From positions 1-21,343 of the IMG/VR virus record IMGVR_UViG_3300042305_000185: a stretch of DNA of 21,343 nt. One strand, written 5' to 3'. Below the pieces are notes generated by a model. That model had not been told where the DNA came from. It did no database searches and was given only the letters and a program-made list of their open reading frames with translations. A program made the translations under genes and the position numbers. This document shows positions 3,008 through 20,401 of the stretch, piece by piece (positions within the stretch are counted from its first letter, which is position 1; every line of letters begins with the position of its first letter). Origin of the DNA: a virus.

Positions 3008-3300
3008 ACCGCAACACTCCAATACAGACGCTCCCCAAGCCTCCATCAGAATACGATCAGACATACTTCGACTCTCTTGTTAAGAACCTTGGAATCCACA
3101 TATACAATCAACGGGTTCCTGGAGAAATGGTTGGAGCATCCATCATGCTCCTGCAATGCCCACGAAGTGGATATGGGCTTAGAGATGGCATGGTGTGGGC
3201 AGATGGAGATGGCGTATTAAGGATTGTCGTGCAAGGACAAGTGTTCGCACCAACGAACAAGATAAAGATTAAACTGGGTACGGTGACAGTAACGACATGA
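3004..3300 (+). CDS. Small structural-module protein, function unknown
   Basis: The 98-residue protein is joined to both neighbours by four-base ATGA overlaps (3004-3007 and 3297-3300), which strongly suggests translational coupling in one operon. The first 25 residues are polar and proline-rich (TLPKPPSEYDQTYFDSLVKN). The rest looks like a compact beta-rich domain, including a GYGLRDGMVWADGDGVLRIV hairpin and an alternating IKIKLGTVTVTT C-terminal strand. There is no signal peptide or membrane span. Proteins of this size after the hub gene are common in aquatic podovirus-like genomes, where they are listed as hypothetical. A minor virion or head-tail joining role is possible on position alone; I recognise no named family. 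Confidence 0.65.
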   Translation: MNRNTPIQTLPKPPSEYDQTYFDSLVKNLGIHIYNQRVPGEMVGASIMLLQCPRSGYGLRDGMVWADGDGVLRIVVQGQVFAPTNKIKIKLGTVTVTT

Positions 3301-4480: not shown

Positions 4481-7400
4481 ATGGCAGATCCACTTCAGAC
4501 TAACGTAGAAAATCGGGATATTCCTGAGTATCTAAGGGATTACCGTGCTGCTCTCATGAACGCAGCGTTTCTTTCTGTTTTTAATGAACCTTACCTGCGC
4601 CAACAGTTTCCTAAAGGGCAGTTCTCTCAATTGCCTGGACAACCTCCTCCTACCGCCGCTGCCACCGATCAACCACCAAGCGGTGGTGGCGGCACCCCTC
4701 CAGACAACACTCGCACCGGAGAATCTCCAGATCAGCAGGGGATTGCCGCTGCTCTTCAGTCTTCTCGCTCTCGCTTGCCTAATCTCTTAGGGATGGTCTA
4801 CGATCCGAAGACTCGTACCTATATCCCTGAGGCGTATCAGTTTATAACATCCACAAGGATGGCAGGTGGAGGTTCTCCTGATGACGAGTTTGAACAGCTC
4901 TTGGAAAAGTATGAAAAGATCAGGAAGAATGTTCCTGTTGGGCTGACAGAGAGTCTTTACGATTCTCAAGATAAGTCCAAGCCTGATGCATTGACTGGTG
5001 CTGTTACCGCACCCGCACGAAAGAATCCTTTTGGGGACTTGATTGGCCCTGCCCAGACTTCTCTTTACACGACTGGTTCCAGTTTCGGTACTGCGTTAGA
5101 TCGGTTTAACCAACCGCCGGATATAACTCCTGCGCCGACTCCTCCTATCGGCACTGGGGTTACTGCTCCACCTGCTCCAGAGAGATTTTCTCCTCCATCT
5201 TCTCCTTCTACTCGTCCTCCTTCTACCGGGACTTCTTCTTATCGTCCTCCTAGTGCGAGTTCTCCTTCTGCCCCAGGAGCCTCTAGTTATTCTCCTTCAG
5301 GGATTTCTGGCCTTACAGGATCTACGCAAGCTGTTGTGCCGATCTATTCGCCTGGGCTTGCTGGAACAACACAGGCTCCAGCGGGGTATAACCCTGCACA
5401 GTATGCTACCGATGCTCAAGCGCAGGGCATTGCAAAGCTTCTGGGCGGCACTACGGCTGCGACGAATGTCGGTGGACCCAATGCCCCTCCCTCTCAGAAT
5501 CTAATCAACCTGGGCGGTTCTGATGCGTTTAATGCAGGGCTGGTACAGCAGCGTCTTCGTGCTGGGCAAACTCCTAGCGAGATGACTATGTCTCTTCAGA
5601 TGATGAGAGACGAGGTTGCTCGTTCCGGGGGGAACACTGCTGAGATTGATCGGATGATCGAGCAGAACAACCGCGCCTATGCTGCTGGCGCTAAGACTTC
5701 TCCTGTTGGAATGGCGGGTGGCGGTAGCCTTGCTCAATTTGATATTGGAGATGATGGCAAGGTAAGGAACTACCGTAAGGGTGGTGCTATCAGAAAGCAA
5801 CTTGGTGGTGGCTTTGATTCTGGTATCAAAAAAGATCCCGATGTTTTTACAAGCATGGGGACTGTTAATAAAACCACCAGTGTTCCTGCTGCCGGAACCG
5901 CTTCTTCAGCTACTTCACCTTTTTTCTCTGGTCCTAATATAAGTGGGTTTGGTGCTGCTACCCAGCCTTCTATGGGTGGGTTCCAGAATTTGTTTGCTGC
6001 TGCAAACCCGAATGTTAATACTTCTGGGATCCCAAACATTTTTAATCCTCCTCCTGTATACGGACAGCAGAGGATTATGCAGTTCGGAACAACTCAGAAT
6101 CCTCTTGAGTTTGGGCAATATGCTCCTGGCGTTGGTTTCAAAGCAAGCGACATGACGCTGAATGCTTTGCGCGGAGCTGGTGGTCTCCCCAGTATCTTTA
6201 CTCCCGAAGGACAGATCAGCGCCGGGACTGATTTTGGTAAAGGTGTAAGGAGCATCAACTTTGCTACCGACATCGCAGGGGAATCGGCTGCTGCTGGTAG
6301 AGATTTCCTTGGGCAGACAATGGCTTCGCCGGAACAGCAAAGCTATCTGATGAGCCTGATGCCTGGGATTAAGGATATGGGATTCAAGGGTCCAATCAAA
6401 ATAGATCCTTTGATGGCACCTACCTTACAAGCTCCCACCGGGGTAACTGCCGCAGGGCTGAAAGATTATCAGATAGCTGAACCCATAGGTGTATCTGGAG
6501 AGAACATTGACATCCTGGGCAGGTTGGGTGGAGTTAATGCGGCACAGGTTGAGGGTGTTCCTCAGGTAGAGAAGTTCCAGATGAGTCCAGCAGAAAGAGT
6601 TGCTGCTGAACGTACAAAGGTAGATGCCTTCGGTCGGCCTCAGGCTGAACAGTATATGTCTCCGTACATGGATGCTGTAACGGAGGCACAGAAGCGAGAG
6701 GCTACTCGTCAAGCGGCAATGCAGAAAGCTGGTCGTAGTGCTGCTGCTGTTCGTGCTGGTGCCTTCGGAGGTAGCCGTCAGGCTATCCAGGAAGGCATGG
6801 CAGAAGAGGCTCTCCAGCGTCAGATTGGAGACATCGAGGCAGTAGGTAGGCAGAAAGCATTTGAGAATGCTCAAGCGCAATTCGAGAGAGATCGTGCTGC
6901 TTCTCTTGCTTCGCAGCAGGCTAACGTACAGTCTGGCTTGCAAGCCGCTCTTGCGAATCAACAGGCTGGTGTTACGACAGGCAGAGAGAATCTGGGTGCT
7001 TTGCTTGCTACTCAACAGCTTGGCACTCAAGCTGGTCTTCAGGCTGCTCTCGCTAACCAACAGGCACGGCAGCAGGCAGGGCTTACGCAGTACGGTACAA
7101 CGGCAGACATCCTTCGGGGTCAGTCTGCTCAGAACCTCCAAGCGGCTCTTGCGAATCAGCAGGCGGGTCTTACCGCAGGACGAGAGAACCTTGCTGCTCG
7201 CTTAGGAACGCAGCAGCTTGCTGCACAGCAGGCCCTACAGGCCCAGCTAGCGAATCAACAGGCAGGGTTGACAGCAGGACAGGGCAACCTGCAATCTGCT
7301 CTTGCTACCCAGCAGTTGGCAACACAAGCTGGATTGGAAGCTGCGAAGGCTTCTCAGTCTGGAGATCTGGCAACGTGGCAGATGCAGTTAGATGCAATTA

Positions 7401-7810
7401 AACAGGCTTCTGCGGAGCAGGAAGCTGCTCGTCAGCGTGGCTTCCAGAATCGGTTAGCAGCGATGCAGCAGGCTCAGGCTGGTGCTGCTGGGCTTGCTGG
7501 TCTGGGAGGTACAATGATGGGTATTCCTGGCATGGCGCAACAGCTTGAACTCCAGCGTCTTGCTGCGATGCAGCAGGCTGGAGGAGCGGTTGATGCTCGT
7601 ACCCAGCAGGCTTTGGATCTTGCCTATCAAGACTTCATCAATCAGCAGAACTTCCCCTATCAGCAGATGAACTTCTTGACGGGTATCATGAATCAGATGC
7701 CGACAGGTATGCAGGTAGAAGGCGTTCAGTTCCAGCGCCCTGCTGCTGGTGGGTTGAGTGGTCTGGTTAGCGCAGGTGCTGGTTCTCTCCTCAACTATTT
7801 GAACAAGTAG
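4481..7810 (+). CDS. Large Gln/Ala-rich virion protein with 33-residue repeats
   Basis: The 1109-residue structural protein follows an AGGAG ribosome site 6 nt before ATG. Regions in order: a polar N-terminus; MAGGG motifs at residues 127 and 411; a Pro/Ser/Thr-rich linker at about 215-280; a Gly-rich middle; and a conserved block at about 720-800 with SPYMDAVTEAQKREATRQAA, then AGAFGGSRQAIQEGMAEEAL. I recall that block from other aquatic phage structural proteins. Residues 820-960 hold an exact 33-residue repeat of Gln/Ala-rich helix, and the C-terminus ends in a small Gly-rich segment. It has no enzyme motif. Position before two further large proteins suggests an internal virion/ejection protein or long rod-like tail component. 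The gene is certain; its role is inferred from context. Confidence 0.75.
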   Translation: MADPLQTNVENRDIPEYLRDYRAALMNAAFLSVFNEPYLRQQFPKGQFSQLPGQPPPTAAATDQPPSGGGGTPPDNTRTGESPDQQGIAAALQSSRSRLPNLLGMVYDPKTRTYIPEAYQFITSTRMAGGGSPDDEFEQLLEKYEKIRKNVPVGLTESLYDSQDKSKPDALTGAVTAPARKNPFGDLIGPAQTSLYTTGSSFGTALDRFNQPPDITPAPTPPIGTGVTAPPAPERFSPPSSPSTRPPSTGTSSYRPPSASSPSAPGASSYSPSGISGLTGSTQAVVPIYSPGLAGTTQAPAGYNPAQYATDAQAQGIAKLLGGTTAATNVGGPNAPPSQNLINLGGSDAFNAGLVQQRLRAGQTPSEMTMSLQMMRDEVARSGGNTAEIDRMIEQNNRAYAAGAKTSPVGMAGGGSLAQFDIGDDGKVRNYRKGGAIRKQLGGGFDSGIKKDPDVFTSMGTVNKTTSVPAAGTASSATSPFFSGPNISGFGAATQPSMGGFQNLFAAANPNVNTSGIPNIFNPPPVYGQQRIMQFGTTQNPLEFGQYAPGVGFKASDMTLNALRGAGGLPSIFTPEGQISAGTDFGKGVRSINFATDIAGESAAAGRDFLGQTMASPEQQSYLMSLMPGIKDMGFKGPIKIDPLMAPTLQAPTGVTAAGLKDYQIAEPIGVSGENIDILGRLGGVNAAQVEGVPQVEKFQMSPAERVAAERTKVDAFGRPQAEQYMSPYMDAVTEAQKREATRQAAMQKAGRSAAAVRAGAFGGSRQAIQEGMAEEALQRQIGDIEAVGRQKAFENAQAQFERDRAASLASQQANVQSGLQAALANQQAGVTTGRENLGALLATQQLGTQAGLQAALANQQARQQAGLTQYGTTADILRGQSAQNLQAALANQQAGLTAGRENLAARLGTQQLAAQQALQAQLANQQAGLTAGQGNLQSALATQQLATQAGLEAAKASQSGDLATWQMQLDAIKQASAEQEAARQRGFQNRLAAMQQAQAGAAGLAGLGGTMMGIPGMAQQLELQRLAAMQQAGGAVDARTQQALDLAYQDFINQQNFPYQQMNFLTGIMNQMPTGMQVEGVQFQRPAAGGLSGLVSAGAGSLLNYLNK
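6938..7363 (+). repeat. In-frame 99-bp repeats, 33 residues = 3 x 11
   Basis: Leucine-led units begin at 6938, 7037, 7136, 7235 and 7334, exactly 99 bp apart, giving four full copies and a partial fifth. The lead peptide is LQAALANQQAG or a close variant in the first four. Each unit divides into three 11-residue parts (for example LQAALANQQAG, LTAGRENLAAR, LGTQQLAAQQA). Codons differ between copies, so the peptide pattern rather than the DNA is conserved. An 11-residue period is the mark of right-handed (hendecad) coiled coils, which suggests an extended helical rod. Confidence 0.85.
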
Positions 7811-7817
7811 GTAGCGT

Positions 7818-9137
7818 ATGAATCTCGTAAAAGCAGCAGATGATTTAAAGAACCTTTCTGACCAGCAGCTAATGATGGCTGGTCAGAATCCTGTGGTAGT
7901 GCCTCCTTATCTGGTGCTTGCAGAGATGAAGCGCAGAGAACAGTTGAGGGCTGAGTACGCTAAATCTGCACAGGCGCAGCAGCAGCCTACGGTAATGCAG
8001 CAGGTTACGCAGAATCTAGTGCAGCAACCGCAACAGCAGCAGCCTCAGCAACAGCAGCAGCCTCCTCAGGCACAGGGGATTATGCAGGCTGCGCCTCCTC
8101 AGGTAGCTGCGATGGCAGGAGGAGGACACGTTGCTAGGTATGCAAACCAAGGCAGGGTGACTACTCCTTCTCTTATTCAGCAGTATCAAAATGAAGCGGC
8201 TAGATCTATGCAAGAGTTGCAGAATTTATCCAACGCTCCTGTTCGGATGGCAGACACTTCGATGCTGGGCATGGACCCTAACCAGATCAAGGGTCAATTT
8301 GCGCCCAAGCCTTTCGAGGATTACCTTTCTCAGTTAAGCCAATTGCAAGGAGAAACTAATTACGGATCTGCTGAGAACCTTGTGCGCCAGCAGATGCAAC
8401 AGGCTCAGGCTCGTCGTCCCAGGATTGGGGATGCCCTGATTGCTGCGGGTGCTGCTATGGCATCCAACAGGGATAATCGAGTAGGGCTGGCTAATCTCTT
8501 GGCGCAAGCTATCGGGGTTGGATCGCAGACCTACGATACGGCTAAACGAGAGCAGCAGAAAGAATTGAATGCCGCGATGATGGCGCAGGTAGCTCTCGAT
8601 AAGATGAAGCAGGAAGAGAGGCAGCGCAGAGGCGCTGCTGCAATGCAGCTTGCCCAGTTCGACCAGAACAAGCTGCTCGAGGCTTACAAGATTGCTCAAC
8701 AGAATCAACGAACTCTTATAGAAGAACGGAACAAGGCACTCAGGGAACAAGACAAGAGAATCATAGACGCACAAATTGAAAAGAATAAATCCAATCTGGA
8801 TATATTAAAAACAACCCTTGGGTATAAACAGCATCTAGACACGCTTGCATCTAATGAAGCTACAGCCAGAATCAGAGCGTCTTCCGGAGAAGGTGGGCAA
8901 ACTAAACTTGGGCTTTCTGGATTGCAAGATCAGCAAAACTTAATTTTGAAAGAATTAGAAGCAACTCAGAAGCAAATGGAGCTGGTTCGTCCTGGGACTC
9001 CAGAGGCAGATGCTTTAGGAAAGAAGTATCTAAGACTGGAGCAGGATATTCAAATGCTTCGAGGTGTTGCTATTCCAGCCGTGCTTCAGCAATTAAACAT
9101 TCCTGTAATCCCTAGAATAACCAGCACAAAGAAATAG
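7818..9137 (+). CDS. Gln-rich coiled-coil virion protein
   Basis: The 439-residue protein has ATG preceded by AGGTAG. The N-terminal 50 residues are helical (LKNLSDQQLMMAGQNPVVVP, then LVLAEMKRREQLRAEYAKSA). Residues about 52-92 are almost pure Gln/Pro/Ala, encoded by CAG/CAA runs. A MAGGG motif follows at residue 99 (MAGGGHVARYANQG). The middle holds RRPRIGDALIAAGAAMAS, then LANLLAQAIGVGSQTYDTAK, a conserved helical block I recall from aquatic phage structural proteins. The last 200 residues are a long charged coiled coil (KREQQKELNAAMMAQVALDK and onward). It has no catalytic motif. Placed between two giant structural proteins, it is probably part of the ejected internal complex, comparable in position to podovirus internal virion proteins. 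No named family is assigned. Confidence 0.7.
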   Translation: MNLVKAADDLKNLSDQQLMMAGQNPVVVPPYLVLAEMKRREQLRAEYAKSAQAQQQPTVMQQVTQNLVQQPQQQQPQQQQQPPQAQGIMQAAPPQVAAMAGGGHVARYANQGRVTTPSLIQQYQNEAARSMQELQNLSNAPVRMADTSMLGMDPNQIKGQFAPKPFEDYLSQLSQLQGETNYGSAENLVRQQMQQAQARRPRIGDALIAAGAAMASNRDNRVGLANLLAQAIGVGSQTYDTAKREQQKELNAAMMAQVALDKMKQEERQRRGAAAMQLAQFDQNKLLEAYKIAQQNQRTLIEERNKALREQDKRIIDAQIEKNKSNLDILKTTLGYKQHLDTLASNEATARIRASSGEGGQTKLGLSGLQDQQNLILKELEATQKQMELVRPGTPEADALGKKYLRLEQDIQMLRGVAIPAVLQQLNIPVIPRITSTKK

Positions 9138-9162: not shown

Positions 9163-12100
9163 ATGGCCGTAAAGCAAGTATATGTTCAGGGCTTCGGCCT
9201 TGTTGAAGTTCCTTCTGAATTGCAGGGAGATGATCTGATTCGGTATGCGAATGCAGAAGCCGATAGGCTTTCTGCTGCTACTGCCGCTGTCCCTGAACGT
9301 CCTAAACCTCAACAAGCAAAACCTTCTCCCGGTATTCTTTCCCAAGCTGGTGCCTTTCTAGGCAGCATCCCTGAAGGCATCGCGCAAGGCGTTGGCAGTA
9401 CCGTATCAGGCATTGGCGCTCTCACTACGATTGACGCTTTAAAGCAGGCAGGTCAAGGCATCTCTCAGTTCGGGGAGGACATATCCAAAGAACTGCTTGA
9501 CGAAGAACAGCGCCAAAGCCTGGGGGGTGCTGGAGGTCGTCTTGTCGGTAATCTTGCTACCTACCTCACCCCAGGCGTATTTGCTAAGGTTGCAGGGCTT
9601 GGTGGTCGTGCTGCTCTTGGCATTGGTTCTGCTGTATCGGGATTAAGCGGAGCGGGGGAGCAGTCTCAACGGATTGCACAAGCGAGAGAAGCAGGCAAGC
9701 AGATCTCCGAAGCGGAAGAGGCAGGTCTGTCTGCTTTGGCTGGTGCAGGTTCTGCTGCTCTGGAAGCCCTTCCCTTAGGGAAGATGCTTGGATCTCCTGT
9801 CGCGCAGAAGCTACCTCTCGTTGGGCGCTTGTTTAGAGAGGCAGGAGAACTGGCTCCTGATGTTGTTAAGGGCATCGAGAAAAGATTTGCAGGAGAAGCG
9901 CCAGAAGTAGCCGCTGTGAAGATAGCAGAGGAGTTGGCGCGTCAGAAAGACAGTCTTATTGCCAACCTTGGGACGGGTGCCAGGGTAAAGTCTGCGCTCC
10001 AGGCTGGAGCCTTAGAGTCTCCGGTAGAAGGGTTGCAGAATACTCTTCAGAATGTAATCACCAAGTACGCATACGATCCTGAGCAGCAGATTACTGAAGG
10101 GCTGAAAGAGTCTTTGATTGCCGGAGGGTTGGGTGGTACTGCAATTCAGGGCGGGATAGAGATCTTCCAGGCCAAGCAGGCTAAGTCTGCGAATGAAAGG
10201 GCAATGGCAAGAGCGAATCGAGAACTATCGGCTCCTCCTACCGCGCCAGAGACTGCGGCACAGACTACGGTATTCATTGATCCTGTCACAGGAAAGCAGC
10301 GTGTTGTAGACAGGGAGACGCCGAAAGAGAAAGGCGTAAGGAAGATTGAAGAGTCTATTTCCAAAGCAGGAGAAGTTCCTGAGGGCATAAGAGGATTACT
10401 CCCTCCCGGTGGGCCTGTCCGTCAGTTGGATACAGAGGTAGGGAGTATCACCGTCCCATCGGACGCCACTCCTGAACAAATCAATCAAATCATTGAAGAC
10501 ATAAAGCAAGGTCGTAGGGAAAGAGAAGAGGCTGGGGCTGCTGCTACTCGGGATTACATACAGAGACAGCAGGCAGAAAGGGAAGCGACATTCCAGAAGC
10601 AGCTACCTCCTGGTGGAGAATACACGCAGGTTGTGGCTCCTTCCAGTGGTTTCCCCGTGGCTGCAATCAATTACGAGAAAGTCGAGGCTCCTTCCGGGAG
10701 AATGATTACTCTCCCTGCTGGAGCTACGCAGCAGGATATTGACTTTGCTGATAAGCAACTCCAAGAACTAGAAGAACAAACTCAAAGATCCAACGAGGCT
10801 TCTCGTCTTTTTTACGAAAAAGGCTTGGAGATTAAAGCTAAGAAGGATCTGAAAGACGCTACTAAGTTTGTCAATCAAAACCCTGAGGTAGCAGATACTG
10901 TCTTCTCTCAGATGGGTATTGAGTCTTTGGCTGACGTAGAAGCTAAAGACATCCCTACGTTTGTCGATCTCATGCTGGAGGAGACGTACAAGCGCCAAGA
11001 GAAACTGACTGCGGCCAACAAGAACATTCAGGATAACTACCCAATAGCTTCTTATCTGGCTCGGGAGGAGCTAAATAAATCTCTCGGCAAGCTGAACGAT
11101 AACCAGAAACTTGAACTGTCTGCTCTCGTCGATACTCAGGTTCAACTGAACCAGAAAGAATATCAAGACGCTGTAGAGGAAGCTGAGATCCGTACCGCAA
11201 TGGGGGTAGAGGGATCTAGCGTTGAGCCTGTAGGCGTAAGGCAGAAACGTGCAGCGCAGGCAATCTACGGGAAGCCTCTTGAGAAACTCAGCACTCCTAG
11301 CTTCTTTCCTTCGGCTACTCCCTCTGTCTCAGAACTGGAGACTGTAGGCAAGTTAGTTGATGAAGGAGACATTAGAAGCCTCCAGATAACTCCAGAAGAA
11401 ATGCTGGAGCGCAAGCAGTTTGAAGGGATGCCCTTCACTACAGCTAAATACAGACAAGTATTGGATGTGTTGCAGGCTAACCCTGACACTCCTGTTACCA
11501 CGAATTATATTAAAGAGACGTTTGATCTCCCTGCCCCTGCTGCTAATAGCATGATGGCGTTGTTGCGGAAGCGTGGAGATCTTAAAGAAGTAGAGGGCAA
11601 AGGAGCGCCAAAGTATTTTGTTGAGCCTAAGGCTGAAGGCCCTCTGTATGAAATGGTTGAACCCACTCCTCAGCCTCAGCCTACTGGGGAACAGTTGTTC
11701 AACATTGCACAAACTACGACAACGCAACCTGAGTTCGATGAGAAGATTGCAGCGCAGTATGCGCCGGATCTTGTTGCGGCGCTGAAGAAGCGCAAGGCTG
11801 AGGATCTATTTCTTCTCGGCATTTCTAATGCGTTGCTTGATGCGAAGGGGAATGTTCAGCCAGCAAATGGTCAATACCTGAATCGAGTTATCTATCTTGC
11901 ATACTCCCCTGAAGGCAAGGTTCGCACTAAAGAGGACATGATAAAGACCCTTGACCATGAAATTATTCATGGCATGAAGGCATTGAATCTGTTTTCCGAT
12001 GCTGAATGGAAGATGCTGACTACCCGATTCAAGATCTCGTACTTGGGAGAAGAGAGAGAGAAGGCTTATCGGAATCGTTACGCTAGCCGAAAAGACTTGA

Positions 12101-15100
12101 ATAGCTTGTTGCAGGAAGAAGCAATTGCTAAAGCTGCTGCTGATTTCTCTAACGTAGATCCTAAACGGTTGGACCCTGTAGCGAAGAGCCTCGTCAAAAA
12201 AGTCGAAGCATTTCTTGGGTTTGGTCGCACTGCTGCACAGATGGGGTATGCCTCGGCTGAGGATGTGCTGGCTGCTGTCAAGTCTGGAGAGATTGGAGGC
12301 AGGCGCTTTACCCCTTTCTACGAGCAGACGATTACCGGGAAAGAGATCTCTGCGCCAAGAGAGATAAAGATTCCAGCGGCGGGGAAGGTTGCTGAGTTTG
12401 TTCGCCCTGCACCTGAGCCAGTAGCTACCGAAAAACTTAAAGCTGCTAAAGGTAAAACTAAACAGCAGAAAAACAAATCAACCGAAAAGAAAGACGAAGC
12501 CGTAGAAGAGGCTTTGTACGCATTTCTTGGGGAGAATGCTTACGAGGCAGACCCAATAAAATCAGCAACGATGGCATATCGGAAGGCTGCTGCTTCGCAA
12601 ATGGAAGCCGAAGGCAAGACCCCTGAGCAAATTAGACTCGCGACTGGCTGGTTCAAAGGCCCATACGACAAGAAGCTGAGGTTTGAGATTGAAGACAAGT
12701 CAGCAAGACTGACCGATGATTTTCTCAAAATGCCCTCGCGCTCACAAGGCGAAACAGATCCCTATTCAGCTTTTGGAAGTATTACTCTCGCAGAGGCATT
12801 AGATCATCCTGAATTGTTTGATGCTTACCCAGAGCTGATGAACATCAAGGTTTTCAAGCTAAATGATATTGACGCAATGGGTTTTTTTGTTCCTGATGCA
12901 AGTGCTATCGTTATTAACCCAAGCCAGTCTGCTGCACAGCAGAGATCAACTCTCATGCACGAAGTGCAGCATTGGATTCAGGACAAAGAGGGGTTTGCAA
13001 GTGGTGGCAACAATGAAGTAGCTGTTGAGTTTGCCCCCGACAGGCTAATCAAACTTACCGCAACCTCAATGCAGAGAAGGCTTAATGAGGATATACGCAG
13101 TTTGGAAGATCGTGTTGATTTCTTAACGCCAGTCCAGACTATGCTTCTTTCATTCAAGAAAGAAATATCTGATGTCTCTAATAGCTACGATTCTTCTTTG
13201 GGAGTCTCGTCATCAGATGCTGCATTAAATCCTCTCTTGCCATATGCAAAAGGCGTTCTTGATTTATACGGTTACAAGGCGGGTAACCGCGAATATCAGC
13301 GTTTCTTGGCAGAGCAAGTTTTGGGTGCATTCAAAAAAATTGATAGTGGAGATCCTTTTTCTGCGGGACCATCTGACACTTACGATGACAGAGTAAAGAA
13401 ATACATATCATCTAGGCGATATGATTTGGAAAACGAAATCGCAACGGCATCAGACCAGAGAAGTATTCTTCGTGGGTCCAACATCCAAGATATAAAAAGA
13501 GTATTGAAGAAAAGCCCGGAGTCTTGGCATTTGTACAATAGGCTTGCCGGGGAAATTGAGTCTAGAGATGTAGAATCTAGAATCAACTTTTCTCCGGTAA
13601 GAAGGAAAGAAATTACTCCTTTTTCATCTTCATTACTTAAACCTGAGTTTGCTATTACCTATAGTGGTAAAGGCTCTCCTTCTTCGTCTAAAGATATTAT
13701 GTATTCTTTAGCAGAGGATGAGGATTCTGCCTCAAGTTCTTCTTCTGTTACTCCTGATGGGTTGGTCCGGGCTTTCTCTCCTCGCTCTAAAGAGAACTTG
13801 GTAGACAAGATCTACAACTTCTTCTCGATTGATCGTCGTTCCTCTTTCCGGCAGAAGTTCTTGGATCGGTATGATCCTGTAAAGGAATGGGCAATTAAAG
13901 CATACGAGCAAACGGGTGACAGGAAGTACCTTGCTGCTGCATCCGGTGCTTATCAGGCCCTCCTGTTCTCCGATAAGGCGCAAGACATTGCGATGGCAGG
14001 TTTGGAGTTTGGCGGCTTCTCTTATGACGGAAGTATCTTTCGTGCTGTAGAGAATGAAAAGAACTCTCCGATCAAACTCTTTGGAGAGTTGGCTGCTATG
14101 CCTGCATCTCAATCTGGGTTTGCTAACAAGCTGGAAGAGTTCTTTGAGGCAGCATATGCTCGGCGCTACCTGGATCTTGCGGAAGGACAAAACAGAGATC
14201 CTGGTGGCGTAGTTAAGATTGAGGATGTCAGACGCACATGGGATGCTTTTAAGGACGATAAAGTCATCGACGATGCAATGAAACGCTTCAAGGCATTCAA
14301 CGATAACTTGATTGATGTCTTAAGGAAGAGTGGTTTCATTGACAAAAAAATGGCAGAGTCGTGGAAGCAATCCTACTACATTCCTTTCTATCGTTTGCCT
14401 ACTGTCAAGACTCAGGATGGAGACGTTGAAACGGGAGAGGTAGACGCGCCGAAGGTTGGGACAAAGGCGACAAACCTAGCTGCTGCAAAGTCATTGTCTG
14501 GGCGCAACCTCCGTGTCAACGATGCCATGGAGAACATCATCTACAACACCTACTTCATGATCGGCACTGCTATGAAGAACGTAGCAGGTGAACGAATCGT
14601 AAGGGATGGCATTACAACTGGGTATATAAAAGAACTACCTATCGACGAGAAGACTAAACGTCGCGCCAAGGAAGATCCTGGGTCGAATGTCATCAGCATT
14701 CGAGAGAACGGTGTCAAGAAGTTCTATCAGGTTGATGATCCGCTGGTGTACGATGCCGTTGCAAAGTCTACTATCCCGGTGCAGGATGCGCTGAAGATGA
14801 TGGGATCGTTTACTACAGCACTTCGGCGCGGGGTTACTACGACTCCTTCGTTTATTCTAAAAAATCCAATTCGAGATACTTTACAGGTATGGATGCAGGG
14901 CGGCTTTGGATCTGACCTTACGCCTCCTGTTGGCGAATACGTTAAAGGCATTACTTCTGTGTTGCAAAACTCTCCTGAATACCGTTCGCTGCAAGGTGCT
15001 GGTATTGCTGGGTCTGGCATTCGAACTCAAAACATTGCATCTGCTGCAAAATCAATTCGAGAAAAGATTGGAGTTGAGCAGAGAGCTTTCTATAAAAAGT

Positions 15101-16377
15101 TCTACGACATACTTGAGAATGCAGCAGATAAGTCTGAAGGGATCAGTCGTGTTCAGGCATACAAAAATGCATTAGAAAAGACTGGAGATGAAGCGGAGGC
15201 TTTGTTCGCCGCGATGGAGACTATTAACTTCTCTCGGCGTGGCACATCTCGTGGCGCGCAGGTAGCGATTGCTTTGCTGCCATTCTTTAATGCTCGGCTC
15301 CAGGGTTTAGATGTTGCTTATCGCACCCTGAAGGGCGACAAGATGATCCCTACTGAACTGACAGGAAGTTCAAAGAAAGCGGTCTATACCCGAATGGCTT
15401 ACGTCTCTGCTCTTTCGGGGGTTTATGCTGTTTTAATCTCAGGCACTAAGGCTTGGCTGAATGCAACAGATGAAGAGCGAGATAGTAATATCTTTGTTCC
15501 TATAGACTGGATTCCTGGAATAAAAGAGGGGACTGCCTTAAAGTTTCCCATCCCTCAGGAGCTTGGCCTTGTTACTAAGATGTTCCCTGAGAGATTGGTT
15601 TCCTACTATAGGGGCCTGGATGATGGCCCAGAATTAGTAGATGCAATGGCTCGTGGATTGCTTGCTACGTTAAGCATGAACCCTATCCCTCAAATTTTTC
15701 GTCCGTACTTTGAGCATACTGCCAACTTTGATATGTACACTCAGAAGCCTATCGAGAACGCTTATCTTCAACGGCTTCTTCCTGAAGAGCGTTACACCGA
15801 ATACACTTCTGAGGTTTACAAGATGGCAGGTCAAGCTATGGGTGTATCCCCAGTAAAGCTGGATCATTTGATTCGTGGTTATACGGGATCTCTTGGCGCT
15901 ATGACCGCTGATATTATCGGCATGATTCTCGAAGAAGGCAAAGCTGCTCCTAAGCCTGAGCGTATTCGCTTTAGCGAACCGTACCTTCTTCCTGGGATCG
16001 GTCAGCTATTCCGCAGTGCTAATGGACGCAAGGCTGTCGAGGATCTGTACGAGCTGGATGAGGCTGCGAATATGGCAGTAGCCACTCTGAGAGCAGTATC
16101 CAGAGGGCAGAGGGAGATGTCTCCTGAGCGCCAGGATGAGCTTCGCTCTATGCTGTACATCGACAAGGCTATTCAGCCTACCCTGAAACGGGTTCAAGCA
16201 TTGAACCGCATGAAGCGTACTGTTCTTGCGGCTGAAGATATGTCTCCAGAACAGAAACGAGACGAACTCAACTCTATTCAAGAAGAGATCGTCTCGCTTT
16301 CTTCTGAGATCAAAGATCTCAAATCAGAGTTGCCGCTTCGTTTTCGAGTTGGTCTATCAAAACTTCTCGGGTTTTAA
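9163..16377 (+). CDS. Giant polyvalent internal virion protein (LPD23/LPD38-like)
   Basis: The 2404-residue protein follows an AGGTGA site before ATG. Visible parts: an N-terminal VQGFGLVEVP module (residues 5-36), with looser copies near 426 and 512; Ala/Gly-rich hydrophobic segments at about 125-200; a winged-helix-like region at about 757-822; and a first HExxH, H932-E-I-I-H936. An LPD23-like block at about 1115-1500 includes TGWFKGPYDKKLRFEIED, a second HExxH (H1266-E-V-Q-H1270 in LMHEVQHWIQDKEGF) and YNRLAGEIESRDVESR. A block of unknown function (1535-1680) precedes an LPD38-like region (about 1690-1960, with LRRGVTTTPSFILKNPIRDT). A possible membrane span is at 2080-2098 and a coiled coil ends the protein. 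Such polyvalent proteins are injected with phage DNA. The HExxH motifs suggest zinc peptidase activity, but the third ligands are unassigned. Domain names are from memory. Confidence 0.8.
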   Translation: MAVKQVYVQGFGLVEVPSELQGDDLIRYANAEADRLSAATAAVPERPKPQQAKPSPGILSQAGAFLGSIPEGIAQGVGSTVSGIGALTTIDALKQAGQGISQFGEDISKELLDEEQRQSLGGAGGRLVGNLATYLTPGVFAKVAGLGGRAALGIGSAVSGLSGAGEQSQRIAQAREAGKQISEAEEAGLSALAGAGSAALEALPLGKMLGSPVAQKLPLVGRLFREAGELAPDVVKGIEKRFAGEAPEVAAVKIAEELARQKDSLIANLGTGARVKSALQAGALESPVEGLQNTLQNVITKYAYDPEQQITEGLKESLIAGGLGGTAIQGGIEIFQAKQAKSANERAMARANRELSAPPTAPETAAQTTVFIDPVTGKQRVVDRETPKEKGVRKIEESISKAGEVPEGIRGLLPPGGPVRQLDTEVGSITVPSDATPEQINQIIEDIKQGRREREEAGAAATRDYIQRQQAEREATFQKQLPPGGEYTQVVAPSSGFPVAAINYEKVEAPSGRMITLPAGATQQDIDFADKQLQELEEQTQRSNEASRLFYEKGLEIKAKKDLKDATKFVNQNPEVADTVFSQMGIESLADVEAKDIPTFVDLMLEETYKRQEKLTAANKNIQDNYPIASYLAREELNKSLGKLNDNQKLELSALVDTQVQLNQKEYQDAVEEAEIRTAMGVEGSSVEPVGVRQKRAAQAIYGKPLEKLSTPSFFPSATPSVSELETVGKLVDEGDIRSLQITPEEMLERKQFEGMPFTTAKYRQVLDVLQANPDTPVTTNYIKETFDLPAPAANSMMALLRKRGDLKEVEGKGAPKYFVEPKAEGPLYEMVEPTPQPQPTGEQLFNIAQTTTTQPEFDEKIAAQYAPDLVAALKKRKAEDLFLLGISNALLDAKGNVQPANGQYLNRVIYLAYSPEGKVRTKEDMIKTLDHEIIHGMKALNLFSDAEWKMLTTRFKISYLGEEREKAYRNRYASRKDLNSLLQEEAIAKAAADFSNVDPKRLDPVAKSLVKKVEAFLGFGRTAAQMGYASAEDVLAAVKSGEIGGRRFTPFYEQTITGKEISAPREIKIPAAGKVAEFVRPAPEPVATEKLKAAKGKTKQQKNKSTEKKDEAVEEALYAFLGENAYEADPIKSATMAYRKAAASQMEAEGKTPEQIRLATGWFKGPYDKKLRFEIEDKSARLTDDFLKMPSRSQGETDPYSAFGSITLAEALDHPELFDAYPELMNIKVFKLNDIDAMGFFVPDASAIVINPSQSAAQQRSTLMHEVQHWIQDKEGFASGGNNEVAVEFAPDRLIKLTATSMQRRLNEDIRSLEDRVDFLTPVQTMLLSFKKEISDVSNSYDSSLGVSSSDAALNPLLPYAKGVLDLYGYKAGNREYQRFLAEQVLGAFKKIDSGDPFSAGPSDTYDDRVKKYISSRRYDLENEIATASDQRSILRGSNIQDIKRVLKKSPESWHLYNRLAGEIESRDVESRINFSPVRRKEITPFSSSLLKPEFAITYSGKGSPSSSKDIMYSLAEDEDSASSSSSVTPDGLVRAFSPRSKENLVDKIYNFFSIDRRSSFRQKFLDRYDPVKEWAIKAYEQTGDRKYLAAASGAYQALLFSDKAQDIAMAGLEFGGFSYDGSIFRAVENEKNSPIKLFGELAAMPASQSGFANKLEEFFEAAYARRYLDLAEGQNRDPGGVVKIEDVRRTWDAFKDDKVIDDAMKRFKAFNDNLIDVLRKSGFIDKKMAESWKQSYYIPFYRLPTVKTQDGDVETGEVDAPKVGTKATNLAAAKSLSGRNLRVNDAMENIIYNTYFMIGTAMKNVAGERIVRDGITTGYIKELPIDEKTKRRAKEDPGSNVISIRENGVKKFYQVDDPLVYDAVAKSTIPVQDALKMMGSFTTALRRGVTTTPSFILKNPIRDTLQVWMQGGFGSDLTPPVGEYVKGITSVLQNSPEYRSLQGAGIAGSGIRTQNIASAAKSIREKIGVEQRAFYKKFYDILENAADKSEGISRVQAYKNALEKTGDEAEALFAAMETINFSRRGTSRGAQVAIALLPFFNARLQGLDVAYRTLKGDKMIPTELTGSSKKAVYTRMAYVSALSGVYAVLISGTKAWLNATDEERDSNIFVPIDWIPGIKEGTALKFPIPQELGLVTKMFPERLVSYYRGLDDGPELVDAMARGLLATLSMNPIPQIFRPYFEHTANFDMYTQKPIENAYLQRLLPEERYTEYTSEVYKMAGQAMGVSPVKLDHLIRGYTGSLGAMTADIIGMILEEGKAAPKPERIRFSEPYLLPGIGQLFRSANGRKAVEDLYELDEAANMAVATLRAVSRGQREMSPERQDELRSMLYIDKAIQPTLKRVQALNRMKRTVLAAEDMSPEQKRDELNSIQEEIVSLSSEIKDLKSELPLRFRVGLSKLLGF
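16305..16321. repeat. Perfect 7-bp inverted repeat at the convergent gene ends
   Basis: TGAGATC and GATCTCA are separated by AAA. The right arm ends on the stop codon of the minus-strand gene (16319-16321), and the element lies inside the plus-strand 2404-residue gene. It sits where the two transcription blocks meet. Neither strand has a T-tract after it, so it is not a classical intrinsic terminator; a weak pause or chance occurrence is equally possible. Confidence 0.4.
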
Positions 16378-16828
16378 GAGGGGTGACCAGGATGACGACC
16401 TTTCTCCGGTCTGTCTTGTTGTGTGTCATCTCGACAGACTTTACGCTAGATCCTGTCATGCAGTCGATTACTCCAGCCCTCCAGAGGATGCGAACGCAAA
16501 CATCTAGGAACGCACTGTAGTCCTGGATGCCGTATGTATCCTCTTTGACGATGGATAGTTTAACTGCCTTTAGGGGGAGGAACTTGAGACTGGTGGAGAT
16601 CGTTGCAGCGATGCGATACATCGCTGCGCTAGCATCTCTCTTCTGTACGATTTCTCCATGCTCCCCTTTAGCCGTCATGCTTTCCGGCATAAAGGGATCG
16701 TTGATTATGATCCTGATCGGTTGTCCTTTGCGGGGGAGGATGCGTTCCTCAGGTTCTTCTGCGATAGCGTCAGGGTTTCCCATCTGCCATCCCACTGGGT
16801 ACTTGTCCCGTTTCTTAGATACTGCCAT
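16319..16828 (-). CDS. Last gene of the leftward block, possibly RusA-like
   Basis: I choose ATG at 16828 (169 residues) because AGGAG lies 7 nt upstream; the frame remains open further upstream without support. The N-terminal 35 residues are charged and polar. From residue 36 an alpha/beta pattern follows: IRIIINDPF, a helix, LKAVKLSIVKEDTYGIQDYS, a helix with LDVCVRILWRAGVID, then VKSVEMTHNKTDRRKVVILV. A strand, then a helix ending in GVID, then a basic segment and a VVILV strand resembles RusA-family Holliday-junction resolvases. The usual DxDN motif is absent; D103, D109 and D122 are the only nearby acids, so the assignment is weak. The gene starts inside the last 124 nt of the endolysin gene and ends 59 nt into the opposite-strand virion gene. 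Confidence 0.55.
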   Translation of the reverse strand: MAVSKKRDKYPVGWQMGNPDAIAEEPEERILPRKGQPIRIIINDPFMPESMTAKGEHGEIVQKRDASAAMYRIAATISTSLKFLPLKAVKLSIVKEDTYGIQDYSAFLDVCVRILWRAGVIDCMTGSSVKSVEMTHNKTDRRKVVILVTPLKTREVLIDQLENEAATLI

Positions 16829-17169
16829 CTTGTTCTCCTGTCTCGTGTGTCGCAATGTATGAAGTTCCCTTGGATAGAAACTCCTACCCCTTGGAACTTT
16901 CCAAACCTCTCTACTTCTCTGTAGAGATCTTGTAGGTTTAGTTCTGGGCAGAACCAATCTACTGCTACCCCTAGAGTGTGTCGTCCAGGGGCTGCGCCCT
17001 TTGCCTTTTCAATGGGGTGATCGGGGCAACGGTATGCGCTGGTTACGGTAAGAGGCTTCCCCAGGAAGTCTCTAAACTCTTGCATGACAGAAAGAAAGGC
17101 GGGGGTGATCCCCGCCTTTTTGCAATGTCTGCACATCAATTCGTTGCTGGAGAAGTTCTTAGACTGCAT
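16705..17169 (-). CDS. Endolysin, M15 (D-Ala-D-Ala carboxypeptidase-like) peptidase
   Basis: The 154-residue protein has the full M15 zinc signature: TSAYRCPDHP (residues 43-52), GRHTLGVAVDWFCP with H64 and D71, and NFIHCDTR with H105 and D107. It is probably a peptidoglycan peptidase that cuts the peptide cross-bridge and lyses the host late in infection. It has no signal peptide, so it would need a holin. The N-terminal FSSNELMCRHCKKAGI is a common opening of phage M15 enzymes. The start shares one base with the dUTPase stop (TAATG). Family members usually end soon after the RRTRWQY segment (residues 111-117). Here about 37 further residues, rich in polar amino acids, are read through the start of the next gene. 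A strong terminator-like hairpin covers codons 17-25. Confidence 0.88.
   Translation of the reverse strand: MQSKNFSSNELMCRHCKKAGITPAFLSVMQEFRDFLGKPLTVTSAYRCPDHPIEKAKGAAPGRHTLGVAVDWFCPELNLQDLYREVERFGKFQGVGVSIQGNFIHCDTRDRRTRWQYLRNGTSTQWDGRWETLTLSQKNLRNASSPAKDNRSGS
17095..17121. terminator. Intrinsic-terminator-like hairpin inside the endolysin gene
   Basis: The stem GGCGGGG (17098-17104) pairs perfectly with CCCCGCC (17110-17116) across a GTGAT loop. It is lengthened by AAA (17095-17097) pairing with TTT (17117-17119). On the plus strand the stem is followed by TTTTT (17117-17121). On the minus strand it is followed by TTTCTTTCT. It therefore has terminator form in both directions. It lies within endolysin codons 17-25 on the minus strand, about 740 nt past the end of the plus-strand structural genes. 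It may stop rightward read-through, attenuate lysis expression, or both. Confidence 0.7.
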
Positions 17170-17618
17170 TAGGCTCCGGTCGAACCGAAGCCTCCTGCTC
17201 CTCTGTCGGTAGACGATAGTGCTTCGGCGGTTTCAAACTCGATCTCTTCGTATTGTGCCACTACCATCTGAGCGATGCGAGTTCCCTTCTCGATCATCAA
17301 CGATTGATTGCCGACCTGCTTGTACCCGTTCCACAGAAGGATGACGCCGATCTCCCCCCGGTAGGAGGGGTCAATCGTGCCAGGAGCATTTAGGACAATC
17401 ACTCCCTGCTTCAGTGCCATGCCTGAACGAGAGCGGATCTGCGCCTCGTAGCCTGGAGGAAGTTCGATAGAGAGGCCAGTCTTTACCAGCAACGGTTCGC
17501 CAGGAACAAGGTATACCGTCTCGTCGGCATAGAGGTCCATGCCTGCATCTTCGTCAGCGCCGTGTGCGTAGATCGGGATGCGAACAGATGCGTTTGAGGT
17601 CTTCAGTTTAATTTTCAT
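17169..17618 (-). CDS. dut: dUTP pyrophosphatase (trimeric dUTPase)
   Basis: The 149-residue protein converts dUTP to dUMP and pyrophosphate, keeping uracil out of phage DNA and supplying dTMP precursor. All five motifs of the trimeric family are present: AGMDLYA (25-31), RSRSGMA (62-68), GTIDPSYRGEI (80-90, with the catalytic Asp), GTRIAQMVV (112-120) and RGAGGFGSTG (139-148) at the flexible C-terminus. Length matches the usual 140-155. I place the start at ATG 17618 because the family begins near this MKIKL strand; the frame is open further upstream without support. AAGGAAAG lies about 11 nt before it. The start overlaps the end of the 59-residue gene by 11 nt. The stop shares one base with the endolysin start, so the two are probably coupled. 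Confidence 0.95.
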   Translation of the reverse strand: MKIKLKTSNASVRIPIYAHGADEDAGMDLYADETVYLVPGEPLLVKTGLSIELPPGYEAQIRSRSGMALKQGVIVLNAPGTIDPSYRGEIGVILLWNGYKQVGNQSLMIEKGTRIAQMVVAQYEEIEFETAEALSSTDRGAGGFGSTGA

Positions 17619-17787
17619 TCTTTGTTTTGCTTTCCTTTGCGTAGCGAGTAGCCAGATCGAATACCCTAACGAGTTCACGTTCAACGTGTTCCGGCATGAG
17701 TTGGTTGGACAGCACCAGATCGGCGAGTGTTTTCATAGACTTGCCAATCAGCTTCTGCTTTCGTACTTGTGTTGTTACCTTCTTCAT
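17608..17787 (-). CDS. 59-residue basic protein, function unknown
   Basis: The start at ATG 17787 is supported by AAGGAG 7 nt upstream; a TTG two codons earlier is less likely. The protein is helical and basic at the N-terminus (MKKVTTQVRKQKLIGKSMKT), then LADLVLSNQLMPEHVERELV and a charged C-terminus (RYAKESKTKNEN). It has no cysteines, no membrane span and no recognised family. It starts inside the last 107 nt of the preceding membrane-protein gene, whose Lys-Glu codons encode its ribosome site, and it overlaps dut by 11 nt. Small basic helical proteins in early phage blocks are often host-takeover or DNA-associated factors, but nothing here shows that. Confidence 0.6.
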   Translation of the reverse strand: MKKVTTQVRKQKLIGKSMKTLADLVLSNQLMPEHVERELVRVFDLATRYAKESKTKNEN

Positions 17788-17998
17788 GTTCAATCTCCTT
17801 CAAGATCTGTTGTTTGAGTTCTTTGTCCCGCCGCTCTCTCAGAAGAGCGGCTTCATAGTTTGCTTTCGCACGGGCAGCGATTATCCCCCATGCGTATGCT
17901 CTTCCATACTGTCGCAGGGATAGCCATAGGATTATACCAACTCCCATGACCATCAATGCGATGAATCCAATCATTCCTTCAGTCATGCTTATCGTCAT
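17681..17998 (-). CDS. Small single-pass membrane protein (possible spanin or holin)
   Basis: The 105-residue protein has one hydrophobic segment at about residues 9-28 (MIGFIALMVMGVGIILWLSL), followed by RQYGRAYAWG and a charged helix over about 40-72 (ANYEAALLRERRDKELKQQI). The tail is polar. A short N-terminus, one span and a helical tail fit an inner-membrane spanin (Rz-like) or a type III-like holin, and the endolysin is three genes downstream. No lipobox partner (Rz1) was seen, so neither is proven. The start at 17998 is supported by AAGGA 5 nt upstream; MTEG at 17986 is an alternative. The start overlaps the ruvC end by 20 nt. The last 107 nt overlap the next gene, and that part of the protein looks unstructured. 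Confidence 0.6.
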   Translation of the reverse strand: MTISMTEGMIGFIALMVMGVGIILWLSLRQYGRAYAWGIIAARAKANYEAALLRERRDKELKQQILKEIEHEEGNNTSTKAEADWQVYENTRRSGAVQPTHAGTR

Positions 17999-18467
17999 GT
18001 TCGTCCTTGTTGATTTGGGTTAGGGCAACACCGATAGCAGCCCACACGTCCTTCGATACCTTGTAGAGTGGGCCACCCTTTTTTGTCACATCGGTGGATT
18101 GTTTAGTTTGATACGAGTCGATGATGGCTTGACGGACGTTTGCGTCCTTTGCTTTCATCGACCCGCACATAGCGATCTTCACTTCGCGCCGGAAGATTCG
18201 GGAGACGTTGTCAGCGCCACAAGATTCCAGGTGCTGCATAATTCTCCCGATCCACACGCACGTCTCGAACACCTCTGCCCCTACTGCCATACCGTAGGAG
18301 GCAATCATTTCGATTGCCACATCAGCAGGCAGTAGTTGCTCTAGGCGTTGCAGAAGCTCTTGGTTATTGCAGATTCCGAAGGCATAGAGATGCCTGTCTT
18401 TGCGCCTTACGAGGGCATAGGCGGTCTTGACGGGGCCGGGATCTATTGCCAGTACGGAATCGTGCAT
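17979..18467 (-). CDS. RuvC-family Holliday-junction resolvase
   Basis: The 162-residue protein has a RNase H-like fold pattern. The first strand carries D9 in SVLAIDPGPVKTAYALV. The second acid is E53 in DVAIEMIASYGM. KAKDANVRQAIIDSY (about 105-119) gives the helix seen in phage RuvC proteins. SKDVWAAIGVALT (138-150) carries D140, matching the last catalytic position of the family, where DA-rich helices are usual. It would cut four-way junctions made by recombination or replication and so debranch DNA before packaging. Length fits RuvC (about 160-175). ATG at 18467 comes 3 nt after the upstream stop. The neighbours (ERF and exonuclease) support a recombination role. Confidence 0.85.
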   Translation of the reverse strand: MHDSVLAIDPGPVKTAYALVRRKDRHLYAFGICNNQELLQRLEQLLPADVAIEMIASYGMAVGAEVFETCVWIGRIMQHLESCGADNVSRIFRREVKIAMCGSMKAKDANVRQAIIDSYQTKQSTDVTKKGGPLYKVSKDVWAAIGVALTQINKDEHDDKHD

Positions 18468-18470
18468 CGT

Positions 18471-18755
18471 CTATTCCCAGGGGTTCTTAGCGGCCTTCGG
18501 GGCAGAGACGATAGCGGATTCCTTCGGGGTGAAGGGAGCGGAGACTTTGACGCTGACAAAGGGTTTCCCCGTCTTCGTCTTACGGTTCCACCCTGCGAGG
18601 GCAACCTTGGGGCTGTTGCCTTTCTGGCATTCCCCGTAGAGATGCATGACGAGATCGGTGCTGAACTCGACATCGCCCTTCCAGTCGGGAGCCTTTTCAT
18701 TCTGCTTGCGGTCGTTCAAAAAGAGAGCGCCGGAATCTAAAAACTTGTTTTCCAT
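18471..18755 (-). CDS. DUF736-like small protein
   Basis: The 94-residue protein has a beta-rich layout: DSGALFLNDRKQNEKAPDWK at residues 7-26, then GDVEFSTDL, a segment with GNSPKVALAGWNRKTKTGKP and a FVSVKVSAPF strand. The order (G-x-LF-x-N, P-D-W/Y-x-G, then xLAGW-x-R, then G-K-P/F-x-S-x-K-V) is what I recall for DUF736 and similar small phage proteins that sit beside recombination genes. Their role is unknown; an OB-like nucleic-acid binding fold is sometimes assumed but not shown. It starts 9 nt after the ERF stop. Its stop is 3 nt before the ruvC start. Context suggests a helper in DNA metabolism. Confidence 0.65.
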   Translation of the reverse strand: MENKFLDSGALFLNDRKQNEKAPDWKGDVEFSTDLVMHLYGECQKGNSPKVALAGWNRKTKTGKPFVSVKVSAPFTPKESAIVSAPKAAKNPWE

Positions 18756-18764
18756 GTTGGTCCT

Positions 18765-19475
18765 TTACTTGAGTTTATTTGCTGCGGTGATAAACATCTG
18801 GGTCAGTTCCTGCTCCCGGTTAGGAGCTTGGAGTTTGACTTGATTGATCTGTTGGTTGTAGCGAACCCATACTTGTCGGGCCTCTTCCTTCGAGGAGCAG
18901 TGTTCCAACTCGTCCTGGATCTGCGCCATCAGAGCATCGACATCGGTTGGCTCTGCTTCGGGGGCAGGAGTGGGTTTAGCCTTGGGGGTAACCTTGGCTT
19001 TCGGTTGCGGGGTAAACTCTGCGATCTGGTTCTCGTCGCGTTCGGGATCGTCTCCCGTTTCAAGCTGGAAGGTCTTCAGCAGGAAGTACTTGTTGGCTCC
19101 GGTCAGGGCTTTGTACAGACCCTTGTCTCCGATTCCGTTCTTGTTCTTGTCGTTGCCGCATCCGAAGAAGTTGCAGGAGATCTCTCCTCCCATCTCGTGG
19201 ATGATCCGGTAGTTGACCTTAACAGTGGTGTTGCCGTATTCGTCTGGGCCTACTACATTCAGGACATCGGAGATGATGATGAGTCCGTTCTCGATCAGAT
19301 GAGGACGCAGTGCAGCGAGAGCATCTCCCTCCGTTGCGTACTTGTATCCGTGGAACTCGTTCTTCCCAGCTTTGTGTACAAAGCTAATGCCTGCCATCGT
19401 CTTGCCGATAGCAGCGATCACCTGTAGTTTATCTACAGGTACTGTCTCGATTGCCTTATCAGTTAATGTTTCCAT
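18765..19475 (-). CDS. ERF-family single-strand annealing protein
   Basis: The 236-residue protein anneals complementary single-stranded DNA during phage recombination. The ERF core covers about residues 16-146: IAAIGKTMAGISFVHKAG, then GYKYATEGDALAALRPHLIE, a strand pair ending NYRIIHEMGGEIS, and the signature GIGDKGLYKALTGANKYFLL (114-133) followed by KTFQLETGDDPE. The last block is typical of ERF proteins. A Lys/Pro-rich linker (about 150-178) joins it to a small C-terminal helical domain. The start shares one base with the nuclease stop (TAATG), so exonuclease and annealing protein are probably made together, as in lambda Red-type pairs. Length and motif order agree well with the family. 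Confidence 0.9.
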   Translation of the reverse strand: METLTDKAIETVPVDKLQVIAAIGKTMAGISFVHKAGKNEFHGYKYATEGDALAALRPHLIENGLIIISDVLNVVGPDEYGNTTVKVNYRIIHEMGGEISCNFFGCGNDKNKNGIGDKGLYKALTGANKYFLLKTFQLETGDDPERDENQIAEFTPQPKAKVTPKAKPTPAPEAEPTDVDALMAQIQDELEHCSSKEEARQVWVRYNQQINQVKLQAPNREQELTQMFITAANKLK

Positions 19476-20401
19476 TACTTCTTCCTCTTTAGTTTGGTCT
19501 TGTTTGCTTGAACGATATTAATCAGTGCTTCTGATACTTCTTTCCTGCGTTGGTCGCAGTTCTTGTTGACGCCGCAGTAGTTGCCTTCGCAACGTCTGGC
19601 GGTTCCGGTGCGGATCTCTACCCATCCGCCTCGAATCTGTGCGGCTTTCTGTTCCGCTTCTTCTTGCGTATCGAATACGCGATGCGCTCTTGTTGCATCG
19701 GGACTCATAACAGCGAAGCGGTCAGGGGTGCGCCACTGTTCCTGATCGGTGCAGTAGGGGAGAGGATCTCCGAAGGCGTGTGCCTCCTCTGCTTTCTGGT
19801 GTTCTCGTACTCGTTGGGTAAGGTATTCCTCCTGTTGTTGGTCTGCCCATAGACGCACGTCTAGGATCTGAATCGGTGGCTTCTGCTCAGGGTTGAACGG
19901 GTTGCGACCGTGATCCCTGGTGATGGCAACGATCTTTGCTTGGCTCACTCTGCGCCCAGTATTCTGGCGCACGATGTGGGCATAGGAGTTTAGCTGTGCC
20001 TCCCATTCTGCTGGCACTCCCTTCTCAATCTTGGAGGTCGTGGTTACCTTCCAGTCGTAGATACAGTATGTATCGTCAGGAAGGGGAACGAGGATGTCGA
20101 TTTGTCCGGTGACTACCCACCCGTTTATGGTATGGTAGTACCGCTCTTCGACGATGTACTCGTCGGTATACGGTTGTAGAGCCTCTTCGGCGAACGCATG
20201 GAAGGCAGTCCCGACAGAACTCCAAAGCCTGTCGATGATGTCCTCCTCTGTGCCAAGGGTCTTAAGTATCCTGATCCGTGGAGGTTGGATCAGTCCGGTG
20301 ACGCTGATGTGGCTGTTCCCTCTGTTGTACCCATCGTAGGCCAGCACCGCTGCTACTGGGTCCGGTAGGTTGTGTCTGTTCCAGAATGTTTTCGATGGCA
20401 T
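19475..20401 (-). CDS. Cas4/RecB-like PD-(D/E)XK exonuclease with Cys cluster
   Basis: The 308-residue protein has the nuclease core in order: H68 in SSVGTAFHAFAEEAL, D102 in VVTGQIDILVP, D116 and K118 in CIYDWKVTT, and Q136/Y140 in WEAQLNSYAH. This matches the RecB/Cas4 branch of PD-(D/E)XK enzymes. The C-terminus has C271, C276 and C282 (RRCEGNYCGVNKNC), with C217 in PYCTDQEQW upstream. These four cysteines could hold a 4Fe-4S cluster, as in Cas4 and AddB. It probably resects DNA ends for the ERF protein. NLPDPVAAVLAYDGYNRGNS near the N-terminus fits phage homologues, so I keep ATG at 20401. GGAG is 11 nt upstream, a long spacing. The start lies inside the last 140 nt of the RHH gene. Confidence 0.85.
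   Translation of the reverse strand: MPSKTFWNRHNLPDPVAAVLAYDGYNRGNSHISVTGLIQPPRIRILKTLGTEEDIIDRLWSSVGTAFHAFAEEALQPYTDEYIVEERYYHTINGWVVTGQIDILVPLPDDTYCIYDWKVTTTSKIEKGVPAEWEAQLNSYAHIVRQNTGRRVSQAKIVAITRDHGRNPFNPEQKPPIQILDVRLWADQQQEEYLTQRVREHQKAEEAHAFGDPLPYCTDQEQWRTPDRFAVMSPDATRAHRVFDTQEEAEQKAAQIRGGWVEIRTGTARRCEGNYCGVNKNCDQRRKEVSEALINIVQANKTKLKRKK

Follow-up and report, generated by a model that had tools for sequence, protein, structure and literature searches.

Polyvalent proteins, as described by Iyer et al. 2017 (PMC5512222), are very large multidomain proteins that carry LPD domains, and their MPTases are three-stranded zincins in which the HExxH helix is followed by a later helix with a Glu. 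One to five MPTases occur in 36% of polyvalent proteins, and more than one in about 8% of the polyvalent proteins that bear any (PMC5512222). Self-processing by these zincins was proposed in the same study from phage P1 DdrB. In the N4 virion RNA polymerase, a giant ejected virion protein, a C-terminal zincin domain with HExxH lies in a region needed for packaging, yet the protein is packaged uncut (PMC5512222); the N4 structure preprint (PMC12633501) mentions the motif, and a term search of that text found no report of peptidase activity. A DarB-like giant protein was found by mass spectrometry in the virions of phage JC1 (PMC9144972). The Pseudomonas phages F116, 8P and AF each encode a protein with two HExxH motifs, in which LPD23 is followed by HE[LV]QH and AGEVEAR.

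The window analysed here is a stretch of 21,343 nucleotides of viral DNA from IMG/VR, and its protein of interest resembles these systems in its very large size, its LPD domains and its two zincin-like domains, hereafter D1 and D2 (Table 1). The ORF is intact and codes for 2404 residues. Analysis of the upstream region revealed that ORFs 1100-3007, 3004-3300, 3297-4472, 4481-7810 and 7818-9137 are all on the + strand and overlap or are separated by short gaps, and that the first large gene, 1100-3007, matches a head-and-packaging virion family. The two ORFs adjoining the polyvalent gene (4481-7810 and 7818-9137) had no match among phage records; ORF 4481-7810 codes for 1109 residues in the window and for 1479 at the corresponding place of locus L001. 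From the gene's place at the end of this compact late-type operon, from the virion-family match of the first large gene and from its relatives, we infer that the product is a virion protein, probably a large phage-type polyvalent protein that travels in the head and is ejected along with the DNA; the DarB-like protein of JC1 virions supports packaging by analogy only. The composition of the protein includes eight His, four of which fall in the two HExxH motifs, and no Cys, the latter in 2404 residues being possibly linked to tail passage. Elsewhere in the window, a convergent early-type region on the - strand (16705-20401) codes for endolysin-like, dUTPase, Holliday junction resolvase, Erf annealing and exonuclease proteins, while upstream of the structural genes (165-861) lie ORFs with similarity to a holin and to a starvation-inducible regulator (DUF5856).

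Table 1. Features of the polyvalent protein gene, with positions in the window.
Feature	Position	Strand	Basis or remark
Large polyvalent protein gene, 2404 aa	9163..16377	+	last gene of closely packed late-type operon
N-terminal region, residues 1-340, constant backbone part	9163..10182	+	43-70% identical in L011-L015
Possible winged-helix segment (weak), residues ~757-822	11431..11628	+	MarR_2 sub-threshold
D1 zincin-like domain, residues 855-1047	11725..12303	+	75-sequence alignment; AlphaFold; Foldseek
HEIIH, residues 932-936, D1 putative catalytic helix	11956..11970	+	inside model helix 85-102
E985-E986 (EEAIA motif), D1 third zinc-ligand candidates	12115..12120	+	invariant in 75; model helix 141-159
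D2 module, residues ~1108-1505: LPD23 and second zincin with helical insert	12484..13677	+	junctions, presence/absence
LPD23, residues 1139-1183	12577..12711	+	Pfam PF18838, 44.7 bits vs cut-off 27
HEVQH, residues 1266-1270, D2 putative catalytic helix	12958..12972	+	DUF6782 and M78 matches; model helix 154-173
Long helical insert between D2 active-site helices, residues ~1290-1450	13030..13512	+	model helices 190-346
AGEIESR, residues 1462-1468; E1464, D2 third zinc-ligand candidate	13546..13566	+	model helix 359-369
C-terminal backbone, residues 1540-2404	13780..16374	+	53-72% identical in L011-L015
LPD38, residues 2097-2261	15451..15945	+	Pfam PF18857, 113 bits vs cut-off 27

The first-pass annotation had described two HExxH motifs about 330 residues apart, and both are present, HEIIH at 932-936 and HEVQH at 1266-1270, with a start-to-start distance of 334 residues. 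When the sequence was shuffled 5000 times with its composition kept, at least one HExxH arose in 0.2% of cases and two arose in none (expectation 0.002). Searches with HMMs of the LPD families placed LPD23 and LPD38 above the Pfam curated cut-offs, the latter downstream as had been noted. The second motif had been placed inside the LPD23-like block; it sits just after LPD23, in a match to DUF6782 that is above the curated cut-off, and Peptidase_M78 also exceeds its cut-off there when the D2 domain is searched alone. D2 thus resembles DUF6782 and Peptidase_M78 (IrrE-like) over its HExxH helix, but the match spans only about 50 residues and the third ligand candidate of D2 lies far downstream, past the helical insert. 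No Pfam family covers the first motif; D1 is without a Pfam model, a difference from the system of Iyer et al. 2017. The winged-helix-like segment of the earlier description stays a weak candidate: Pfam gave only a sub-threshold match to MarR_2 at 763-805 (E=0.1, 13.2 bits against a cut-off of 27), and the segment is only partly conserved among orthologues, being alignable yet divergent in L015. NCBIfam searches gave nothing above curated cut-offs, phmmer found no PDB match for the complete protein, and, unlike in the N4 protein, no RNA polymerase domain was found in the window protein.

Starting from an alignment built on Ruegeria phage 45A6, we collected IMG/VR relatives of D1 that are about 20-76% identical, while a scan of genome contigs for D1 recovered a single relative. 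Alignment of 75 sequences, which were filtered for HExxH and not for the E985/E986 pair, revealed that H932, E933, H936, E985, E986 and A989 are invariant. The AlphaFold model of D1 (pLDDT 82.9, pTM 0.79) shows helix 18-38, strands 46-50, 65-68 and 71-75, the HExxH helix and then the EE helix, which is the order given for the MPTases of polyvalent proteins (PMC5512222). Foldseek comparison with the PDB returned mostly zincins as top matches, each of them weak (best E=0.17) and most of them protein-cleaving; the strong matches were to phage proteins alone (best E 1.5e-6), and a profile search against the PDB gave nothing significant. D1 is under strong purifying selection (window versus L011: dN 0.18, dS saturated above 1).

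The D2 model, covering residues 1104-1510, was also confident (pLDDT 85.2, pTM 0.80) and has strands 126-130, 137-140 and 145-148, the HExxH helix, the insert and the helix of E1464, the insert being about 155 residues longer than that of F116. Across relatives GExE[AS]R lies 32-217 residues downstream of the D2 HExxH and is present in every untruncated member examined; with a looser search, the members missed by the strict pattern proved to have it as well, apart from one that is truncated. Alignment A4 of D2 was preselected for GExE[AS]R, and the invariance of the motif within A4 is no independent evidence. A profile search of D2 against the PDB gave no significant match, the best being IrrE (E=0.18), while helical bundles that resemble the insert dominated the Foldseek matches, which included a single zincin, selecase 4qhf. 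Compared with hhalign, the profiles of the two domains match each other at the HExxH helix (E=2.6e-5), so D1 and D2 are probably distant relatives. Residues 1117-1290 (window 12511-13032) are identical to L001 in their DNA and the adjacent insert differs at 32 bases, a pattern that suggests recombination; a dN/dS comparison of D2 between the window and L001 was uninformative because of this identity.

The secondary structure of both modelled regions agrees with that of the polyvalent-protein zincin fold, and in each the histidines are conserved and a conserved third-ligand candidate was found. Because each domain has an HExxH helix and a downstream helix with such a candidate, both could bind zinc, and we are highly confident that each has a zincin fold and conserved ligands. 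The suggestion that the protein carries two zinc peptidases therefore stands as regards two conserved zincin-like domains, while their peptidase activity is predicted from sequences and models.

Comparison with relatives indicated that D2 is present or absent as a block. In five orthologous loci (L011-L015), whose proteins are 1884-2004 residues long, the D2 module of about 400 residues is missing as a block, with junctions at about 1108 and 1505 within low-complexity linkers, while D1 is 51-76% and the C-terminal region 53-72% identical to the window. The N-terminal region was weakly detectable in L026, L028 and L032, and relatives of the C-terminal region occur in many phages at 24-30% identity. 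A tree of the C-terminal region showed the D2 carriers as one group nested among non-carriers, which favours a single gain of D2 in the window lineage over repeated losses, although with few lineages and an uncertain order of L014 and L015. In remoter relatives that have D1 and LPD38, other predicted domains lie between the two, namely ART-PolyVal (an ADP-ribosyltransferase) and DUF7178 in L019, GP88 in L025 and an L5 gp82-like domain in L026. Given the absence of the D2 block in L011-L015 and the differing domains at this place in distant relatives, the protein seems to be built on a constant chassis, made up of D1 and the C-terminal region, that offers a slot for cargo; D1 belongs to the fixed backbone, and D2 is probably an exchangeable module that was inserted.

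We propose that the N-terminal region, D1 and the LPD38-bearing C-terminal region are the constant parts, and that the stretch separating D1 from the C-terminal region, flanked by low-complexity linkers at about 1050-1110 and 1500-1535, is a cargo slot that would here be filled by D2. Since D1 is part of the backbone, its most likely job would be tied to its own protein, such as releasing the cargo by cleavage of the linkers, perhaps as self-processing, or a structural role in packaging; D2 would most likely be an exchangeable cargo acting on another protein, or else a helper of D1. Zinc binding, activity, packaging and the order of action of the D1/D2 protein are putative in this proposal, and the domains may, as had been suggested, take part in virion maturation or act against a host target. 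Taken as a whole, a chassis zincin D1 with D2 as cargo is a reading to which we give even chances.

Two HExxH motifs in one virion protein had been thought unusual, which is not borne out by the up to five MPTases counted by Iyer et al. 2017, by phages F116, 8P and AF, or by the LPD23-zincin ORFs of the IMG/VR set: a phage protein with two zincins is of a known kind. Of the 52 distinct LPD23-zincin ORFs that reach 1500 residues or more, gathered from one collection with two peptide patterns, 49 carry an extra HExxH or HExxxH (3.8 expected by shuffling), versus 20 of 84 D1-family ORFs, and their partners, judged by eye, seem to be zincins of several types. In F116, 8P and AF the partner is a zincin of a different type located about 195-200 residues after D2, while in the window a partner of the D1 type precedes D2 by 334 residues. 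These counts and the variety of partners would fit a working pair, in which LPD23-zincins need another zincin on their own injected polypeptide in order to function, the two perhaps processing step by step or activating each other; the pairing would then have arisen repeatedly with differing partner types, as a two-peptidase processing or activation system in virions. The partner may, however, merely be the common backbone zincin of such proteins, only part of the partner motifs judged by eye were tested as zincins, and the loci come from that one collection and pair of patterns, and we consider a dependent pair unlikely.

A further reading is that both zincins act as effectors on host proteins after joint delivery, the latter as the first-pass annotation had proposed. 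The resemblance of D2 to IrrE/M78 fits it, through the Pfam match and a PDB profile match of E=0.18 only. Studied members of the IrrE/M78 family cut regulators. Effector roles of zincins are known from other conflict systems (Iyer et al. 2017, PMC5512222). Against such a role, D1 is retained throughout the backbone family irrespective of cargo, a pattern more in keeping with a function in the biology of the protein itself than with a host-specific one, and joint delivery of two host effectors appears improbable to us. It is very improbable that either domain, or both, lacks peptidase activity and is a structural zincin fold or an HExxH enzyme of another kind, for although the N4 virion RNA polymerase keeps its HExxH domain in a packaging-needed region yet is unprocessed (PMC5512222), and the weak fold matches of D1 include an alpha-ketoglutarate HExxH oxygenase domain, the general-base and third-ligand glutamates of D1 are both invariant, which a purely structural role would not require. 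Wall passage, also put forward for one of the domains, was rejected: neither domain resembles a cell-wall peptidase, the weak neighbours of D1 being mostly protein-cleaving zincins as noted, the protein has no cell-wall domain, and a separate endolysin-like ORF lies on the other strand.

What is new here is the anatomy, namely a constant backbone zincin together with a D2 that is present or absent as a block. Zincins are the commonest domain of polyvalent proteins, and they may serve self-processing or attack on the host. The recurrent pairing of LPD23-zincins with a further zincin is the most interesting lead, and the natural orthologues with and without D2, which have D1 in common, make the two roles separable by direct experiment.
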